DNA from: a virus
DNA: 62,381 nucleotides
Direction: 5' to 3' (one strand)
IMG/VR virus record: IMGVR_UViG_3300013125_000007
Coordinates: 1 to 62,381 of that record
In this document: piece after piece, positions 4,350 to 60,735 of the stretch
How positions within the stretch are numbered: the stretch's first letter is position 1
Layout of the letters: the number at the start of each line of letters is the position of its first letter
Position numbers and translations under genes: made by a program
The notes under the pieces: generated by a model
Told to the model about the DNA's origin: nothing
Seen by the model: only the letters and a program-made list of their open reading frames with translations
Database searches by the model: none

Positions 4350-4658
4350 ATGAGCATCGCAAAAAAACTTTTAGAAATTAAAATTGGTGTATCAAAATGG
4401 CCCAAAAGTTCTATAAAAACAAATGTTATTAAAATAGAAAAACCTAAAATTGAAACTTTATCACTTACAGATGTGAATAAAGTACATCTTCTTGTAACTA
4501 CTACGTTTGAAAATAATAAATATTTTGCAAAAGCCGGAGATGAGGATTATACTCAATTTATAAATCAAGCAAAATTAAAATACGCGTTTACTAGAAGTGG
4601 TAGAATTAAAGGTACTATTAATAAAGATAATACTATAGTATGGAGAGTTACCAAATGA
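4350..4658 (+). CDS. Hypothetical protein sharing a C-terminal module with the 6225 gene
   Basis: This is a 102-residue basic protein. The C-terminal ~60 residues align with the C-terminus of the protein at 6225-6821: a beta-like segment, then LKYAF..SGRIKG and a final WRV motif (here VWRVTK, there KWRVIK). The function is unknown; the module could be a small nucleic-acid-binding domain. A TATATTTAAT motif lies 12 bp upstream, and the stop overlaps the RNA ligase start (ATGA). Confidence 0.6.
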   Translation: MSIAKKLLEIKIGVSKWPKSSIKTNVIKIEKPKIETLSLTDVNKVHLLVTTTFENNKYFAKAGDEDYTQFINQAKLKYAFTRSGRIKGTINKDNTIVWRVTK

Positions 4659-5689
4659 GAAAATTAGCAACTATAAGACGAATTTCAAATATTAAACCAA
4701 TACCAAATGCAGATAAAATTGAAGTTGCAACTGTAGATGGATGGCAAGTTGTTATTAAAAAAGGAGAATTTTCAGTTGGTGAGTTATGCATATATTGTGA
4801 AGTAGATTCATTCTTACCTATTAAACCTGAATTTGAATTTTTAAGAAAATCATCATACAGAAAATTTCCCGATGGACGTGAAGGTTTTAGACTTAAGACC
4901 ATTAAAATGAAAGGTCAAGTTTCTCAGGGATTAATTTTACCACTTGATGTTATAACAGGTTTAATGTCAATTGATCAAGATGACAATGAAATAGGTCACT
5001 CTCTATTATTCAGAGATGTAACTGATATTTTAGGTATTGTTTTATATGACCCTCCAATTCCTGCATGTCTAAATGGTAAAGTTATAGGTTTATTTCCATC
5101 TTTTATTCCGAAAACTGACGAAGAAAGATTTCAAAATTTAAGTATGGTATTATCAAAATATTCAGGTAATAAATTTTATGTAACTGAAAAGATTGATGGA
5201 ACTTCAACTACCATTTATGTTAAAGATGGTCGTGTTGGTGTATGTTCCAGAAATTTAGAATTAGATATGTCTGATGTAAATAATAAATATATTAAAACAT
5301 TTACTGAAATGGGTCTAATTGACAAATTGCAAATTTTTTCACGTAATTTAGCTATACAAGGTGAATTAGTTGGACCTGGAATTCAAAGAAATCTTTATAA
5401 AAGAACCAAGGCGGAAATATATGTTTATAGTATATTTAATATAGATACCCAATCATATTTATCATATAATGAATTTTTGTTTATGTTGAACTATTTTCAA
5501 TTGAATAGTGTTCCAATTGTAGATTCAAATTTTGTGTATGAAGGTCAAGATTTATTACTTATGGCAGATGGTAAATCTCTGTTAAATCCAGAATTAGATA
5601 GAGAAGGTTTAGTGTTTAGAACAGTAGATTTGCCTAAATTTTCTTTTAAATCAATTAGCAATAAATTTTTACTTATAAATGAGGATTAA
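4655..5689 (+). CDS. RNA ligase, DRB0094 (Rnl5-like) family
   Basis: This 344-residue protein starts at ATG 4655, which overlaps the previous stop as ATGA and has GGAGAG seven bases upstream. Starting here gives the family's usual beginning, MRKLATI..I. The N-terminal ~140 residues form an OB-fold-like domain seen in Deinococcus DRB0094-type ligases. The nucleotidyltransferase core then has motif I EKIDGTS (K179, D181, G182), CSRNLEL (197-203), GELVGPGIQ (236-244) and REGLVFR near the C-terminus. The expected reaction is ATP-dependent sealing of RNA (5'-P/3'-OH). It probably counters host RNA cleavage or repairs tRNA. Confidence 0.88.
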   Translation: MRKLATIRRISNIKPIPNADKIEVATVDGWQVVIKKGEFSVGELCIYCEVDSFLPIKPEFEFLRKSSYRKFPDGREGFRLKTIKMKGQVSQGLILPLDVITGLMSIDQDDNEIGHSLLFRDVTDILGIVLYDPPIPACLNGKVIGLFPSFIPKTDEERFQNLSMVLSKYSGNKFYVTEKIDGTSTTIYVKDGRVGVCSRNLELDMSDVNNKYIKTFTEMGLIDKLQIFSRNLAIQGELVGPGIQRNLYKRTKAEIYVYSIFNIDTQSYLSYNEFLFMLNYFQLNSVPIVDSNFVYEGQDLLLMADGKSLLNPELDREGLVFRTVDLPKFSFKSISNKFLLINED

Positions 5690-5690
5690 A

Positions 5691-6212
5691 TTGAAAGTTT
5701 ATATTTCAGCGCCAATGAATAACAATCCAATAGGTAATATAATTGATTATTATTCTTATTGGGAACAAGTATTACGAATGCAAGGTTATAATGTATTGAA
5801 TCCAATGGCAGGAAAAATGATTAAGAATGAGTTACATAACTGGGGTATACAGCCAGGTGATGTATTAACTAATGAAAATTTAGATCCTCTTCAAAACATT
5901 TCTATTTGGAATTATCAAAATATATTTGCTAGAGACAAATGGATGATTAATCAATCTGACATCGTATTTGCAACACTTATAGAACCATTTACCGATGGTC
6001 TTAATTCTAAAGTTTCAACTGGTGTATTATGTGAAGTTGCATGGGGACACATATTAAATAAAAATGTAGCATTGGTTATTAATAAAAATAATTCATCACA
6101 TAATCATACATTTATTACTTCATGTGCAACAAGTTTATTTTATCATAACAAATATACAGATGATGTATTAAAAGATTATTTTAATACATTATTAAATGGT
6201 AGTTTTAATTAA
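5691..6212 (+). CDS. Nucleoside 2-deoxyribosyltransferase-like protein
   Basis: This protein has 173 residues from TTG 5691, which has GAGGA five bases upstream. ATG 5679 is in frame but lacks a ribosome-binding site. The fold signature is KVYISAPM at the N-terminus, then ARDKWMINQSDIVFA in the middle, and STGVLCEVAWGH, where the Glu is at the position of the catalytic Glu of this superfamily. Such proteins transfer or hydrolyse deoxyribosyl groups in nucleotide salvage; related phage proteins are often annotated DUF4406. It overlaps no neighbour and follows the RNA ligase directly. Confidence 0.7.
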   Translation: MKVYISAPMNNNPIGNIIDYYSYWEQVLRMQGYNVLNPMAGKMIKNELHNWGIQPGDVLTNENLDPLQNISIWNYQNIFARDKWMINQSDIVFATLIEPFTDGLNSKVSTGVLCEVAWGHILNKNVALVINKNNSSHNHTFITSCATSLFYHNKYTDDVLKDYFNTLLNGSFN

Positions 6213-6224
6213 AGAAAGGTTTTC

Positions 6225-6821
6225 ATGGCAATATTAAAGTTAAATGATTTCAAAGTAGCATATCCTAATTTATGGGTAACAATTAATAATATAAGAATTG
6301 AAACTGGTTCACAGAAACTTGATAATATTTATCCTGAACAGTTTAATATTCCTATTAGAATGTCAGATGCATCTCTTGCTGAATTATTTTTAACAAAATC
6401 TAATACAACTAAGACCTTAGTACCATTGGGTTATAATCAATTTGAAAAAATTAAACAAGCTGTGATTAATGAACCAAACGTTATAAACTGGTTGAATGTA
6501 TTATACTATAATTTAAAAGAAGGGGATACTACTAATATTTATAATAAAGAATTAAAAGTAAAACTTAAGAATAAAGTTAAAAAACAACAATCTTATTTTA
6601 ACAAAGATACAGAAATTATATTAACATTAACTGTATCTAAGGTTAATAACAAAGATGTATATCGTGCAATAGATACAAATACTGGAATAGATTATACATC
6701 TAAAGTAAATAACATGAAAATGAAATACGCAGTTGTTAATAAGGGTGTTATTCGAGGTAGAGAAGATTCAAGTGGAAATTATAAATGGCGTGTCATTAAA
6801 GAAAAATTTATTAAAGATTAA
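6225..6821 (+). CDS. Hypothetical protein with the same C-terminal module as the 4350 gene
   Basis: This is a 198-residue basic protein with a GAAAGG ribosome-binding site. The N-terminal ~110 residues are not recognised. Residues ~130-195 resemble the C-terminus of the 102-residue protein at 4350 (MKYAV..KGVIRG, then KWRVIK). It is therefore a longer paralogue with an added domain. The two genes sit in the same transcription block, separated by the RNA ligase and the deoxyribosyltransferase-like gene. Confidence 0.6.
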   Translation: MAILKLNDFKVAYPNLWVTINNIRIETGSQKLDNIYPEQFNIPIRMSDASLAELFLTKSNTTKTLVPLGYNQFEKIKQAVINEPNVINWLNVLYYNLKEGDTTNIYNKELKVKLKNKVKKQQSYFNKDTEIILTLTVSKVNNKDVYRAIDTNTGIDYTSKVNNMKMKYAVVNKGVIRGREDSSGNYKWRVIKEKFIKD

Positions 6822-6823
6822 TT

Positions 6824-7027
6824 ATGAGTAAAGTAGATATATATACAATTACATCTTTGTTAGATGATAGTCCAGAAACAAATGAGATGTACAGATTATG
6901 GGATTTAGGTGATTGTTCTTTAATAGGATTACTTAAAATTTTATTAAAACAGGAAATTAATAAAGAAATTAAAAGTCGTGGTCAATATTATGATGGAGAA
7001 TTTAAAGAATTAGAGTCAGTGTTATGA
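6824..7027 (+). CDS. Small hypothetical protein
   Basis: This is a 67-residue acidic protein starting two bases after the previous stop, so translation is probably coupled. It is mainly helical (LIGLLKILLKQEINKEIK). No family is recognised. It is followed by a 123-bp gap with no clear signal. Confidence 0.5.
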   Translation: MSKVDIYTITSLLDDSPETNEMYRLWDLGDCSLIGLLKILLKQEINKEIKSRGQYYDGEFKELESVL

Positions 7028-7150
7028 AATTAAGATTTAATTTATAATGTGATGTACCTAATAAGATTTGCCCAACACTACTACCAATAAGAATTTAAAA
7101 AGTATTTTAAAGAAAATGATAGAATCAGTAAATCATAATAGAGAATTAAA

Positions 7151-7417
7151 ATGAAAATGAAAAAAATAATGGAAATGCCTCATGTTGATGTTGGCAAATC
7201 TACTTTTGACTTATGTATAGAAAAATATCCGATGTCATTAAATGAAAAATCAACATTGATAAAGTTATTTAATGAAAAAGGACTAAATGCATATCATAAA
7301 AAATATAAATGGATTTTAATTAAACCTAGTAGAATAGAAAAAATTAAATTTCCTGTATCACTATTATATACTCTTCCAGAATATTGGCAAGATTATGTTG
7401 TAGGTAATATAGAATAA
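7151..7417 (+). CDS. Small hypothetical protein
   Basis: This is an 88-residue basic protein beginning MKMKKIMEMPHV; the second ATG (7157) is an alternative start. It is in a tight run with the next two genes (1-bp gap, then a 14-bp overlap). No recognised family. Confidence 0.5.
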   Translation: MKMKKIMEMPHVDVGKSTFDLCIEKYPMSLNEKSTLIKLFNEKGLNAYHKKYKWILIKPSRIEKIKFPVSLLYTLPEYWQDYVVGNIE

Positions 7418-7418
7418 T

Positions 7419-7619
7419 ATGCACATATTAGTAGAAATAGAAAATCATATTACAGCTATAGATATTTTTGCTTTCAACATCGCTCAATTTTTGTTAATAT
7501 CAAATTCTGATATAACTAGTAATAATATTAAATATAAAATTAATATGTTGAACAATGACAGAAGAGATTTATTTAAATTAATATCTAAGTTAAAAACTTT
7601 ATCACATGAAAGAAATTAA
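7419..7619 (+). CDS. Small hypothetical protein
   Basis: This is a 66-residue protein with a hydrophobic/helical N-terminal half (IDIFAFNIAQFLLI) and a basic C-terminus. It starts one base after the preceding stop and overlaps the zincin gene by 14 bp. Function is unknown. Confidence 0.5.
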   Translation: MHILVEIENHITAIDIFAFNIAQFLLISNSDITSNNIKYKINMLNNDRRDLFKLISKLKTLSHERN

Positions 7620-8340
7620 TAGTGGATTTTTGTTAACTACATCTCAAAGAGAAGTAAATAATAAATCCATAGAATATATGTGGCAAAGGTTGTGTATGCT
7701 CTTAGCATATAGTGATTTGAGTACGCCAAACATTGTATTTACATCAAATAAAGAACGGTGGATAAAACATTGTGGTCATGAAAAGGTATCGTGTCTGTAT
7801 GACGAAGATACTGGTTCAATTGTATTTGATGCTGATAATTATTATTTGACATCTACCTTAGTTCAAAAATACGTACCTCAAACTATAATTAATTTAGCAA
7901 AAGAAAAAAATTATATTTATATAATTCCACTAGCAGATGTTTATCACGAAATGATTCATCACGTTCAATTTAGTATAGGTATATGGACACATAATGATTT
8001 ATTGGAGGCAAGTGCTGAATTATATTGTTATATGATTACAAATTATAGAGCAGATGAATATTACGATGAGATGTTATCTTTTTGGTATATTGCTAAAAAA
8101 ATATTAAGATTAAAACCGTGGGAGTTATATTTATTTGTTAGAGACTCAATTGTAGATGAAAATTTCTATATAAAATATTTTAGCAATCCTAAATTTGTAA
8201 AATATATTGCAGATGAATATTCAGGTTCAGTAGAAAAATTCTGGTCAACATTTAAATTAAAGAATGCTAAAAAAAGATTTAAATCTCAAATGTTAAATGA
8301 TATTAATAAAATACACACTGAAATGTTTTATAAATGGTAA
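7606..8340 (+). CDS. Putative zinc metalloprotease (HEMIHH zincin)
   Basis: This 244-residue protein carries HEMIHH at 114-119, the zincin H-E-x-x-H motif, and an acidic EASAE at 134-138 that could supply the third metal ligand, as in gluzincins. The motif sits in a helix predicted from YHEMIHHVQF. No signal peptide is visible, so it should act in the host cytoplasm or be packaged. Substrate unknown. A second, unrelated zincin (8832) lies 0.5 kb downstream. Confidence 0.65.
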   Translation: MKEINSGFLLTTSQREVNNKSIEYMWQRLCMLLAYSDLSTPNIVFTSNKERWIKHCGHEKVSCLYDEDTGSIVFDADNYYLTSTLVQKYVPQTIINLAKEKNYIYIIPLADVYHEMIHHVQFSIGIWTHNDLLEASAELYCYMITNYRADEYYDEMLSFWYIAKKILRLKPWELYLFVRDSIVDENFYIKYFSNPKFVKYIADEYSGSVEKFWSTFKLKNAKKRFKSQMLNDINKIHTEMFYKW

Positions 8341-55653: not shown

Positions 55654-57270
55654 ATGAAAAATCTTAATGTTCAACAACTATTAAATGGTAGAAATCCTCA
55701 AGAGGTTCTTCTAAATGAAACCAGAAAATTAGTTGGAAAATGGGAGCCTACAAGACTGTTAGAGGGCTTAAAAAATGAAACAGAAATTCGTGGTATGGCT
55801 GTCCTTTTGGAAAACCAAGCACGTCAATTAATTAAAGAATCATCAAGAGTGTCTGGTGATGGTGCCGAAGAATGGTCACCTATCGCATTAGCACTTGTTC
55901 GTAGAATCTTTGGTGAAACCGCAGCAAAGGAATTTGTTTCTGTTCAACCTATGAATTTACCTTCAGGCCTAGTATTTTTCTTAGATTTCAAATATGGTTC
56001 AGGTAATCAACCTGGATTTAAATTTAATCATTCAATATATGGTGGTGATTCTGCATCAAACGGTACTCCTGGTTTATTCGGTAGAACTACTGATGCTTCA
56101 GGTGGTCTTTATGGTGCAGGTCGTTTTGGATATTCTATTAATAACTTTGTAACAAGTTCATTAACAGGTACTCAAGCAAGTGCGTCATGGGCAGAATGTA
56201 ATTATAATACTGATCTTTCAGCTTCAGTTGTTAGTGGTAATATGAAAAAAGTTACAGTAACAATGAACGGTGATATCGATGAACAAGGTGTTAGAGCATT
56301 CAAACTTACTTCAGGTTCAACTGAACTTGTTTATTTCCCTGAATATACTTCAGCTGCACAAAGTGGTACACAGTATTTGGTAACATTTATTGTAAGTCAA
56401 TCTGCTGCTTTTGGTGCATTGAATGCATTTAATGTTTATTATCATAAACAACCAACTGCAGATGCTAGAGGTGATTTTGAAGATCAATCGTTCTCAGGTT
56501 CTTATCAATCACTTGATATTCCTGAAATCGACATTGTGTTAAAATCAGAACCAATTGTTGCTAAAACTCGTAAGTTGAAAGCAGTTTGGACTCCTGAATT
56601 AACACAAGATTTGAGCGCATATCACTCAATCGATGCTGAAGCAGAATTAACAAGTATGTTAAGTGAATACATTACCATGGAAATCGATCTTGAAATTCAA
56701 GATATGCTTATCCAAAATGCAGATACAACTGAAGTTTGGTCAGCACGTGTAGGTTTCGAATATGATGCTACTACTAATGTATTTAATCAAACAGCTGTGA
56801 ACAATCAAGCTTATACGAAATCAACTTGGTTCCAAACACTTGGTACTAAATTACAAAAAGTAAGTAACACTATTCATAAGAAAACTCTTCGTGGTGGTGC
56901 TAACTTTGCTGTAGTATCCCCTGATGTAGCAACTATTCTTGAATCAATTCCTGGATATATGGTTGATACTGATGGCGACAAAATGACATTCGCAATGGGT
57001 GTTACAAAAGCCGGTTCATTTGCAAATAGATACACCATTTACAAGAATCCATATATGACTAGTAATGTAATATTACTTGGTTATAAAGGTGGTTCATTCT
57101 TGGAATCAGGTGCCGTTTATGCGCCTTATGTACCTTTGATCAGCACGCCTGTAGTTTATGATTACGATAACTTTACTCCTAGAAAAGGTGTAATGACTCG
57201 TTATGCTAAAAAAATGATTAGACCTGAATTTTATGGTCGTATCATAGTAGCAGATCTTAACTATGTGTAA
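55654..57270 (+). CDS. Major capsid protein (gp23-like)
   Basis: This 538-residue protein is close to T4 gp23 (521). The N-terminal region has helices with LLE at 35-37 and 51-53, both candidate protease sites that would release the delta-domain. FVSVQPMNLPSGLVFFLDFKYG (about 90-111) is the gp23 HK97-fold entry. LKAVWTPELTQDLSAYHSIDAE (about 308-329) and the conserved C-terminus (VYDYDNFTPRKGVMTRYAKKM) are diagnostic. Codons are less AT-rich than in neighbours, consistent with high expression. A strong terminator follows. Confidence 0.95.
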   Translation: MKNLNVQQLLNGRNPQEVLLNETRKLVGKWEPTRLLEGLKNETEIRGMAVLLENQARQLIKESSRVSGDGAEEWSPIALALVRRIFGETAAKEFVSVQPMNLPSGLVFFLDFKYGSGNQPGFKFNHSIYGGDSASNGTPGLFGRTTDASGGLYGAGRFGYSINNFVTSSLTGTQASASWAECNYNTDLSASVVSGNMKKVTVTMNGDIDEQGVRAFKLTSGSTELVYFPEYTSAAQSGTQYLVTFIVSQSAAFGALNAFNVYYHKQPTADARGDFEDQSFSGSYQSLDIPEIDIVLKSEPIVAKTRKLKAVWTPELTQDLSAYHSIDAEAELTSMLSEYITMEIDLEIQDMLIQNADTTEVWSARVGFEYDATTNVFNQTAVNNQAYTKSTWFQTLGTKLQKVSNTIHKKTLRGGANFAVVSPDVATILESIPGYMVDTDGDKMTFAMGVTKAGSFANRYTIYKNPYMTSNVILLGYKGGSFLESGAVYAPYVPLISTPVVYDYDNFTPRKGVMTRYAKKMIRPEFYGRIIVADLNYV

Positions 57271-57300: not shown

Positions 57301-57328
57301 AAGGGTAGTAGAAATACTACCCTTTTTT
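57301..57328 (+). terminator. Intrinsic terminator after the capsid gene
   Basis: A perfect 10-bp stem, AAGGGTAGTA / TACTACCCTT, with GAAA loop and T-tail. Related in sequence to the terminator at 59292-59324 after the inserted gene. Confidence 0.93.
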
Positions 57329-57377: not shown

Positions 57378-57390
57378 TTATTTATCATCA
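57378..57390 (+). repeat. 13-bp direct repeat TTATTTATCATCA, copy 1
   Basis: Identical to 59340-59352. In both places it lies between a terminator and a (C/T)ATATTTATA motif, so the whole terminator-repeat-promoter block is duplicated around the gene at 57444. Confidence 0.7.
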
Positions 57391-57443: not shown

Positions 57444-59267
57444 ATGGAAATCTGTAAATTGTGTCAAAAACAATTTAAAACAAACAAATCATTATCATAT
57501 CATTTTACTACAACACACCACATAGATTACATTAAATGGTTATTAGATAACAATATGTTAACAATACCAAAATGTAAAGTATGTCATACAGATATTAATA
57601 TAATATTTGGAAGAGGAAGGGCTAAGATACTAAATTCACCAAGTGAATTAATTTATTGTAGTAATAAATGTAAATTAAATTCACCTGAATATAAAATAAA
57701 AATGTCAGATTTGGGTAAATCTAATGCGCATTATATGACAGACAGAATTATATCTAAAGAAGAAAAAGAAAAAAAATCTATATCTACTAAAAATTCATGG
57801 TTAGATAAAGATATAAGAAATTCAAGAATAAATAATATGAAATTATATAAAAATACTTCAATTCATAATGAACATATTTCGAATGCACTCAAAGGAATAA
57901 AACGTAGTACAGAATATAAAAATAAAATGTCAAAAATTATAAGTGAAAAATATATTAATGGTGAATTTATGTCTACTAAAATAAAATTTAATTCTGTAAA
58001 GGCTGGAAAATTACTTCATTTAATGTCATCATATGAATTTAAGTTTGCATTGTATTTAGATATTAATCCAAACGTAACATTGGTACAATATCAACCATTT
58101 TATTTAAAATCTAATAATAAAAGATATATACCTGATTTTTATTATGAAGAAAATAATAAAAAATATTTAGTAGAAATAGATAGATATAAAGGATATAAAG
58201 AAAAATACGGGTATGGTTGGAAATTACAACTTGCAAAGGAATGGTGTAATAATAATAATGCTACATTTTTATATATAGATTTAACGGATATATGTGCAAT
58301 GTGGAAAGAAAATATTCCTACTTTAAATATATATGATATTAACCTTGATATACAACCATATAACACATACGCAATAGAGCAAATGACTCAAATGTTAATT
58401 CATTCAAAATTATATATATCAATACCTAAAAATGATGTATCAAAACATATTGATGAAGACTTTATTAAATTAAATTATGTGTCGAATAGAAAATTTAATA
58501 CTACACCATACACAACGTTGGGTTATTATGATAATTATTGGGATTGTAAATGGAAAATTGCTAGATTTTCACCCAATAATGCGATAAATTATAAAACTAC
58601 ATTAAAAACAATATTAAATAATATTGCTAAAAAAAATATTCAAATTAATGGTACCACTTTAATTTCTCAAATAAAAAGTGAAAGATATTCAATATCAGTT
58701 TTTCCTGAACAGTGGGCAGAATGGATATATAAAAAATTATTAACAAAAACTAATCATCTATCTATATTAGACATATGTGGTGGGTTTGGTGGTCGAATAT
58801 TAGGATTTAATAAATTTTTAAATGGATATAAAAATTATGATTATACATATGTAGACGCAAATAAATATAATTGCATTAATACACAACATATGTGTAATCA
58901 TTTAGGCATTAAAAATGTAACATATATTAATAATATGTTTGAAAATGTATTAGAATTATATAATAAAAAATATAATTTAATGTTTACTTCAATTCCGTAT
59001 TATGATTTAGAAAAATATAATGATATAGATATTGAGAAAATATATGTGTCAAAAGAATTATTTATTTCCAAATTTATTAACAATATTTTTAAATTAGATT
59101 GTAATGTCATATGTATTAATATATCTCAAAAATATTCACATATCCTAAACAATGACTTTGTTAATTATAATTCATATAAACACATAAATACATTTTCTAT
59201 AGAAATGAGTAAACACCCATTTCAAACCCAACAAAATACAGAACTATTTTATGTGTATACGAAATAA
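57444..59267 (+). CDS. Zinc-finger / NUMOD-like / PD-(D/E)XK-like nuclease fused to DNA methyltransferase (mobile gene)
   Basis: This is a 607-residue protein. Residues 4-26 form a C2H2 finger (C4, C7, H20, H25). A second Cys4 ribbon uses C44, C47, C72 and C76. About 104-175 has NUMOD3-like repeats (HISNALKGIKRSTEYKNKMS). About 192-285 is a nuclease-like core with SYEFKFALYLD (E198), YIPDFYY (D231) and YLVEID (E244); the usual E-x-K Lys is replaced by D246. About 335-607 is an S-adenosylmethionine methyltransferase: ILDICGGFGGRILG (441-454), VDAN (470-473) and TSIPYYDLE (515-523), a variant of (D/N/S)PPY. The first half is homing-endonuclease architecture. It is very AT-rich and flanked by duplicated regulatory blocks. 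Confidence 0.78.
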   Translation: MEICKLCQKQFKTNKSLSYHFTTTHHIDYIKWLLDNNMLTIPKCKVCHTDINIIFGRGRAKILNSPSELIYCSNKCKLNSPEYKIKMSDLGKSNAHYMTDRIISKEEKEKKSISTKNSWLDKDIRNSRINNMKLYKNTSIHNEHISNALKGIKRSTEYKNKMSKIISEKYINGEFMSTKIKFNSVKAGKLLHLMSSYEFKFALYLDINPNVTLVQYQPFYLKSNNKRYIPDFYYEENNKKYLVEIDRYKGYKEKYGYGWKLQLAKEWCNNNNATFLYIDLTDICAMWKENIPTLNIYDINLDIQPYNTYAIEQMTQMLIHSKLYISIPKNDVSKHIDEDFIKLNYVSNRKFNTTPYTTLGYYDNYWDCKWKIARFSPNNAINYKTTLKTILNNIAKKNIQINGTTLISQIKSERYSISVFPEQWAEWIYKKLLTKTNHLSILDICGGFGGRILGFNKFLNGYKNYDYTYVDANKYNCINTQHMCNHLGIKNVTYINNMFENVLELYNKKYNLMFTSIPYYDLEKYNDIDIEKIYVSKELFISKFINNIFKLDCNVICINISQKYSHILNNDFVNYNSYKHINTFSIEMSKHPFQTQQNTELFYVYTK

Positions 59268-59291: not shown

Positions 59292-59324
59292 AAAGGCTAG
59301 TAGAGATACTAGTCTTTTCATTTT
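59292..59324 (+). terminator. Intrinsic terminator after the inserted gene
   Basis: An 11-bp stem, AAAGGCTAGTA / TACTAGTCTTT, with one G-T pair and GAGA loop, followed by a T-rich tail. It resembles the post-capsid terminator (shared frame AAGG-TAGTAGA-ATACTA). Confidence 0.85.
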
Positions 59325-59339
59325 AAAAGAATCTACCTC

Positions 59340-59352
59340 TTATTTATCATCA
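59340..59352 (+). repeat. 13-bp direct repeat TTATTTATCATCA, copy 2
   Basis: Exact partner of 57378-57390, again downstream of a terminator and upstream of a TATATTTATA motif. Confidence 0.7.
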
Positions 59353-59562: not shown

Positions 59563-60735
59563 ATGGCAAATTATAATATTTGGCCTGGAAGCGCATCATT
59601 AGCAGAAGTTAGTCAATACACAAATTTTGGATTCTATAATTCAGATGTGAATTTCATAAGTGAATCTATTGCATCTACAAAATGGGCAGCATCTAGATTA
59701 GGATATCCAGTTAATGATGTTGAATTGACAAATTCAAATTTTATATCTGCATTTGAAGAAGCTGTTAATGAATATAGTGCGATGGTAAATGCAAATAATA
59801 TAAAAGAATATATGTTTTTATTACAAGGTAGTTCTAAAAATGTAAATTTAACCGGTAGAGAAATTCGAGGTGGATTAGGAAGAATAATTAAACTTGTAGA
59901 TGCATACGGTGCAGAAGTTGGGGCAGGTGGTGATGTATCCTGGAAAACAGGAAGTATCATGCTTACAAGTGGTACACAAGTATATGACTTAAATACTTTA
60001 TTTGCAGCAGCATCTGAATCCGGTAATTCAATAAGAATTAAAAGAATATTTCACGATAGAGAACCAGCGCAACTACGTCAATTTGATCCAATGGGTATTA
60101 GTTCACCAATTGGTATAAGTGGTATAGGTAACCTGAATGGATTATCCGGTGGTGGTTCACTTGGATATCCAGGAACATCATATATTCTTAGACCTGTATA
60201 TGAAGATGTATTAAGAATGCAAGCAATTGAATTTAATGATCAAATTAGAAGAAGTGCATATACATTTGAAATTATAAATAATCAATTAAGAATATTTCCT
60301 ATACCTAAACAGGATTTTCCACTTTGGTTTCATTATGTAGTTAAAAACGAAAGTGATATTGCTTATACAAGTGGAAGTGTAGGTGAAGGAAAAATAACAG
60401 ATCCAGCAGATATTCCATATCAAAATATTATTTATTCTAATATCAATTCAGTTGGTCGACAATGGATTAGAAGATATTTTTTAGCATTATGTAAAATTAC
60501 AATGGGTGGTATTAGAGCTAAATTTACCAATATACCAATACCTGGTTCTGAAGTTAGTTTAGATGGTGAATCTTTGCGTAATGAAGGTACAACAGAAAGA
60601 ACTGCATTAATTGAGGAATTAAGAGATATGTTAGAAAAAAGTGGTAAGAAAAATCAACTTGCAAATAAACAAGAAGAAGACGAAAATATTCAGAAAATTT
60701 TATCCAAGATACCTCTTGGAATATTTGTAATGTAA
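59563..60735 (+). CDS. Neck protein, gp13-like
   Basis: This is a 390-residue protein with TTGGAGA ribosome-binding site. Typical of the family are WAASRLGYP and the following FISAFEEAVNEYSAMVN near the N-terminus, YILRPVYEDVLRMQAIEFNDQIRRSAYTFEI (about 206-236), and the C-terminal GGIRAKFTNIPIPGSEVSLDGESL (about 320-343). gp13 completes the filled head and binds gp14. The order 23-(insert)-13-14-15 fits the T4 scheme, where this group lies elsewhere. Confidence 0.78.
   Translation: MANYNIWPGSASLAEVSQYTNFGFYNSDVNFISESIASTKWAASRLGYPVNDVELTNSNFISAFEEAVNEYSAMVNANNIKEYMFLLQGSSKNVNLTGREIRGGLGRIIKLVDAYGAEVGAGGDVSWKTGSIMLTSGTQVYDLNTLFAAASESGNSIRIKRIFHDREPAQLRQFDPMGISSPIGISGIGNLNGLSGGGSLGYPGTSYILRPVYEDVLRMQAIEFNDQIRRSAYTFEIINNQLRIFPIPKQDFPLWFHYVVKNESDIAYTSGSVGEGKITDPADIPYQNIIYSNINSVGRQWIRRYFLALCKITMGGIRAKFTNIPIPGSEVSLDGESLRNEGTTERTALIEELRDMLEKSGKKNQLANKQEEDENIQKILSKIPLGIFVM

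Follow-up and report, generated by a model that had tools for sequence, protein, structure and literature searches.

A gene of a bacterial virus encodes a nuclease and a DNA methyltransferase (MTase) on one chain behind the major capsid gene and, judged from its sequence, is somewhat likely to be a free-standing homing gene, carried by large T4-like phages, with immunity built into the same protein. Relatives occupy the same spot in dozens of distant phages, a pattern suggestive of a selfish gene whose product would cleave DNA that lacks a mark and place that mark on its own DNA. Homing endonucleases usually avoid self-cleavage in one of two ways: their own gene splits the site, or the carrier has a different version of it. 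A homing gene beside its target, in contrast, leaves the site undestroyed by its own insertion and needs another shield. The fused MTase would be one, and its mark would solve the problem of self-cleavage.

The window, meaning the entire 62,381-base viral record analyzed here, carries the fusion gene at 57444 to 59267 on the plus strand, and the single uninterrupted frame of 607 codons described in a prior sequence-only reading was confirmed. The gene lies 173 bp downstream of a gp23-type major capsid gene (55654 to 57270, plus strand; Pfam Gp23, E = 2.9e-75; PHROG major head protein), the putative homing locus, and 295 bp upstream of a neck/head-tail adaptor gene (59563 to 60735, plus strand; PHROG head-tail adaptor). 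Among 80 gp23 loci retrieved as relatives of the window capsid, 55 have an empty site, in which the neck gene directly follows gp23 after 97 to 144 bp rather than the roughly 2.3 kb seen in the window, and the fusion gene is present at 3. Moreover, the G+C content of the fusion gene is 20 to 24%, compared with 28 to 37% in the flanks. Together, the empty sites and the low G+C content of the insert bear out the earlier claim of an insertion behind the capsid gene. At loci L142 and L149, GIY-YIG homing genes with NUMOD3-like repeats occupy the same space downstream of gp23 and upstream of the neck gene. A group I intron or an intein was ruled out: an Rfam scan of the window returned no match at the gathering threshold and no intron family even at a relaxed E value, the fusion gene lies between genes and leaves gp23 intact.

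An intrinsic-terminator-like hairpin, AAGGGTAGTAGAAATACTACCCTT followed by TTTT, stands behind gp23 (57301 to 57324, plus strand), and a second terminator-like hairpin resembling it stands behind the fusion gene (59292 to 59317, plus strand). The gene is also flanked by a 13-bp direct repeat, TTATTTATCATCA (left copy, 57378 to 57390; right copy, 59340 to 59352; both plus strand), whose significance is marginal, as its score is 27 and the highest score among shuffles was 26; neither a target-site duplication nor a co-conversion tract was demonstrated in the window. A 56-bp exact direct repeat with the gp23 terminator flanks the fusion in L175 (same as L020; around 5693 to 8006). Flanking direct repeats were nevertheless rejected as a general insertion signature, since only L175 was clear, the window was marginal, and the others had none. 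The sequence TATTTAT was likewise rejected as a late-promoter mark because it is no more frequent than expected by chance. We note that gp23 is split over two frames in three carriers of the fusion (L171, 5179 to 6826; L207, 4839 to 6440; L213, 2171 to 3760), either by sequencing frameshifts or by true breaks in the putative target gene, and that phage RM378 has an annotated HNH endonuclease behind its gp23 homolog on the opposite strand (L006, 4753 to 6036).

When the window protein was used in a single-sequence search, no relatives were found in viral contigs, and phage matches were to the MTase region only. Relatives were instead reached by profile searches, which did not select for genome location, and these recovered a full-length ortholog in viral contig L171 that is 55% identical to the window protein, has the same domain order, and likewise lies behind gp23. 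The protein begins with a C2H2 zinc finger (residues 1 to 26; 57444 to 57521, plus strand; C4/C7/H20/H25), for which the Pfam match was weak (zf-C2H2_4, E = 0.07), the model has a pLDDT of 75 to 80 (about 77), and the motif is retained in L171. A Cys4 zinc ribbon (residues 44 to 76; 57573 to 57671, plus strand), recognized from sequence, follows, and L171 retains all four residues (C44/C47/C72/C76). Helical repeats resembling NUMOD3 and DUF7487 (residues 79 to 176; 57678 to 57971, plus strand) gave a weak PHROG match. Similar repeats occur elsewhere: a "putative mobile endonuclease" of phage UPEC03 has NUMOD-like repeats that match the equivalent region of L171, and clade relatives bear DUF7487 or NUMOD3. 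Finger, ribbon, and repeats had each been proposed from the letters alone, and each was supported.

The nuclease (residues 181 to 290; 57984 to 58313, plus strand) appears to be a PD-(D/E)XK enzyme of the TnsA/T4-gp4 type. Pfam TnsA-like_N matched the window protein at an E value of 0.002, and the TnsA-like domain of L171 exceeded the curated cutoff (27.4 versus 26.5 bits). Moreover, a profile built from the nucleases of the window protein and L171 matched T4-gp4-type head-completion nucleases in hhalign (97.2%, E = 2.9e-11), and T4 gp4 was earlier placed in the PD-(D/E)XK superfamily (PMC1189080). The AlphaFold model of the whole chain gave a pLDDT of only about 50 for the nuclease, but a domain alignment gave an alpha-beta core with a pLDDT mostly of 77 to 94, for which TnsA is the best solved structural match and for which viral matches include head-completion nucleases, Vsr-type nucleases, and other homing nucleases. 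Profile and model thus bear out the nuclease core that had been read from the sequence. E198, D231, and E244 are present, and D246, which is kept in L171, replaces the Lys of the E-x-K found in TnsA and gp4. The D-G-x-x-H motif of Vsr nucleases, invariant in 27 relatives, is absent from the window and L171 proteins, the window protein being without the Gly and His of a Vsr-type site. Assignment of the window nuclease to the Vsr type of its clade was rejected (profile match of 4.8% versus 97.2% for gp4). A search for the window-type nuclease domain across viral contigs found nothing beyond L171's own contig.

The remainder of the chain matches an MTase profile from residue 331 to 580 and consists of an N-terminal part common to relatives (residues 331 to 432; 58434 to 58739, plus strand) and a class I MTase core (residues 433 to 607; 58740 to 59264, plus strand). 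Motif I reads DICGGFGGR, with GGFGGR at residues 446 to 451, and motif IV reads TSIPYYD, with SIPYYD at residues 516 to 521. The core was modeled with the strand order of a Rossmann fold, and its matches among solved MTases include M.BseCI, a DNA adenine MTase, such that the methyltransferase claimed earlier was upheld. In a relative, L013 (6116 to 7951), PADLOC matched the MTase domain to mad2 of the MADS system (E = 1.7e-13), and the phage MTase family appears by sequence to be kin of that bacterial defense MTase.

The clade comprises at least 35 distinct fused proteins, some of them near-duplicates, and all are from phage; a scan of 84,980 cellular genomes, within its sensitivity, recovered no member. 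Upstream DNA is readable for 33 fusions, and gp23 lies upstream in 32, with a median gap of 144.5 bp. Genes intervene at three of these 32 loci, namely, a GIY-YIG homing gene in L188 and Mom-type nuclease genes in L003 and L213, and the fusion in L213 is a broken copy. The only exception in the clade that is not behind gp23 is L184 (4047 to 7645), where the fusion lies between an upstream open reading frame that looks TnpB/IS605-like by eye and a downstream tail-type gene. Capsid and MTase relationships disagree (Mantel r = 0.48). The nearest capsid and the nearest MTase came from the same locus in 8 of 28 cases and disagreed in 20. For example, L014 and L189 have MTases that are 85% identical and capsids that are 68% identical, whereas L014 and L015 have capsids that are 87% identical and MTases that are 58% identical. 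Because cassette and capsid histories are discordant at 20 of 28 loci, we conclude that the cassette moves at a fixed site. The family thus appears to have the features of homing endonucleases, namely, a homing-type nuclease fold, an intergenic site that is empty in relatives, and lateral movement. The homing-gene character suggested by the sequence-only reading gains support from these, from the NUMOD, DUF7487, and zinc finger parts, and from the other homing genes in the same gap.

The nuclease itself has been exchanged. Most clade members carry a Vsr-like nuclease in which the D, D-G, H, and D residues are invariant in 27 sequences. In the MTase tree, the window protein and L171 sit on a long branch inside the Vsr-bearing clade (inner-node support of 99/91), and as a gp4/TnsA type nested among Vsr types, the window branch appears to have swapped its nuclease. 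The MTase family has also been joined to LAGLIDADG nucleases elsewhere in its tree, where motif IV reads SPPY; at least two branches beyond the clade carry such fusions (L007, 1988 to 5677; L031, L033, L041, L067, L071, L075, and L055), and a different, HK97-like capsid gene lies directly upstream in 7 of 8. A single HNH case, L024 (5414 to 7204), has the reversed domain order, in which NUMOD4 and HNH_3 come after the MTase in the same chain. The MTase-only relatives that were examined adjoin genes for a helicase, a clamp loader, and other replication functions, and no capsid gene of either type was seen in their vicinity. The same MTase family also occurs with a long zinc finger/HTH N terminus beside an open reading frame of 1,700 to 1,800 amino acids (L027, 5354 to 7951; L060, 5177 to 7774; L068, 5471 to 7762). 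At or near the gp23 loci, zinc finger or DUF7487 nucleases carry a Mom/GNAT-like C-terminal domain (NHLQG...), in what appears to be a parallel fusion of a nuclease to a DNA modifier (L003, 948 to 2660; L020, 7866 to 9278; L021, 7939 to 9318; L014, 2 to 1372; L213, 4393 to 5625). The Pfam Mom domain was matched in L014 (E = 2e-5), and the others were assigned by sequence.

How the fusion might spread can be proposed in outline. The zinc motifs and NUMOD-like repeats would guide the protein to a target within or close to the gp23 locus, where the nuclease would cut the unmodified site in a co-infecting phage. Repair templated by the carrier genome would then install the fusion gene between gp23 and the neck gene. 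Methylation of the site by the MTase part, probably at an exocyclic amino group of A or C, would let both the carrier and the new recipient escape further cutting. Thus, cleavage, methylation, a target common to both, and the homing event itself are what we infer from the arrangement. Perhaps, with about even chances, self-marking homing genes form a class in which a single protein cleaves an allele lacking the mark while methylating the one it comes from. Such genes would have been assembled at least three times from one MTase family and unrelated nucleases (Vsr type, later swapped for the TnsA/gp4 type; LAGLIDADG; and HNH), mostly behind two unrelated capsid types.

Two readings would deprive the fusion of one or both activities. 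That it is a decaying remnant or an assembly chimera of two genes is highly improbable, even though the variant residues were flagged on first reading as possible decay and broken copies like that of L213 do exist. L171 has a full-length copy with the same order in the same place, and we conclude that the fusion is neither wreck nor chimera. Across the 55% identity of the two proteins, the nuclease is the better conserved part (61%), LVEIDRYKGYKEKYGY is unaltered, and dN (0.37) is below dS (1.3, near saturation). Moreover, a close pair of clade relatives has a dN of 0.07 and a dS of 0.69 (dN/dS of about 0.1), which shows strong purifying selection on that pair at the sequence level. D246 is invariant across 28 aligned relatives and the Ile of SIPY is found in nearly the whole clade; as hallmarks of the family, both make decay unlikely. 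Thus, of the earlier interpretation, the one-chain fusion, the intergenic insertion behind the capsid gene, and the homing-gene character stand, and partial decay does not. It is also improbable, if less so, that the MTase-like domain is a noncatalytic DNA- or AdoMet-binding part of a protein that is solely a nuclease. SIPY does depart from the canonical amino-MTase (D/N/S)PP(Y/F), and it does so in nearly all clade members. However, L212 retains PPY, L017 and L187 have TPY (L184 has SIPF), and motif I and the Ser, Pro, and Tyr of motif IV with their surrounding positions are invariant in 28 proteins. Active enzymes vary likewise: Erm/KsgA-type rRNA adenine MTases have N(I/L)PY, and BamHI and BglII have E-x-E and E-x-Q at the position corresponding to E-x-K. 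Both E-x-D and SIPY are therefore compatible with activity.

Other readings keep both activities and change their purpose. The next-best-fitting explanation, although an unlikely one, is a phage weapon, a one-chain restriction-modification-like protein that marks the carrier genome widely and destroys unmarked phage or host DNA without homing. Iyer et al. (2021, PMC7824862) predicted such action for jumbo-phage fusions of Mom to a nuclease, and genes of the Mom type are found at or near the gp23 loci of L014, L003, L020, L021, and L213. In addition, a relative's MTase resembles the defense MTase mad2, and interference by a phage endonuclease has been published (PMC11620839). A weapon, however, needs neither a constant site behind gp23 nor a pattern of empty and occupied sites. 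Moreover, the NUMOD, DUF7487, LAGLIDADG, and HNH parts are typical of homing nucleases. We favor homing over a weapon because of the constant site and the lateral replacement. Less likely still is a homing nuclease with a passenger MTase that shields the phage from host restriction and makes the insertion beneficial, unlinked to the protein's own cleavage site. MTase-only relatives do occur as ordinary phage genes beside replication genes, but the repeated joining of one MTase family to unrelated nucleases suggests that the link to cutting matters, and the fused clade has its own variant of motif IV. Finally, a lineage-specific accessory gene traded by ordinary recombination would also fit the constant site.

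Homing with self-marking would combine parts that are known separately: free-standing homing genes behind gene 23, Vsr homing nucleases, one-chain restriction-modification enzymes, and Mom-nuclease fusions. Homing genes near capsid genes are commonplace (PMC10448857), and segD of T4 sits between genes 23 and 24 (PMC2988022), behind gene 23 like the window fusion but on the opposite strand. The Seg and Mob endonucleases of T4-like phages are likewise free-standing and intergenic beside an essential gene and have zinc finger or NUMOD-type DNA-binding parts, but their nucleases are GIY-YIG or HNH and a review does not mention methylation (PMC2988022), whereas the window protein joins a TnsA/gp4-type nuclease to an MTase. 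The Mom (GNAT)-nuclease fusions of jumbo phages also place a nuclease and a DNA modifier on one chain and are predicted to mark themselves and cut other DNA, but the modifier is an acyltransferase, and they are described as a restriction component without a constant capsid site or homing (PMC7824862). Most clade members share the Vsr-like nuclease and DUF7487/NUMOD3 parts of Vsr-like homing endonucleases (I-Bth0305I type) and DUF7487 proteins; the clade differs by the fused MTase and the window protein also by its nuclease. T4 gp4 and TnsA have a homologous nuclease domain, but the window protein is multidomain, has E-x-D, and is no virion nuclease. Type IIG/IIC and other fused restriction-modification enzymes also unite a nuclease and an MTase in one polypeptide. 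The window protein, however, is phage-borne, with homing-type DNA-binding parts and a fixed site behind the capsid gene, and its MTase is nearer the phage family that resembles mad2. In the open-access literature searched, no paper was found to describe fusions of a homing nuclease to an MTase downstream of a capsid gene, and the combination of parts, its recurrence, and its fixed site appear to be new.

Restriction-modification systems and homing genes have long been proposed to be two forms of one selfish strategy. If the fusions are self-marking homing genes, that proposal could be put to a direct test, with one locus offering dozens of natural variants and the MTase-only relatives elsewhere in phage genomes serving as a built-in control. 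The fusion would then represent a gene drive of natural origin that carries its own immunity and falls between homing endonucleases and restriction-modification systems, and it may bear on how co-infecting phages compete over the capsid locus. Elsewhere in the window, positions 4640 to 5689 encode an RNA ligase with a PHA02142 OB-fold domain (Pfam, E = 5e-42 and 3e-25).
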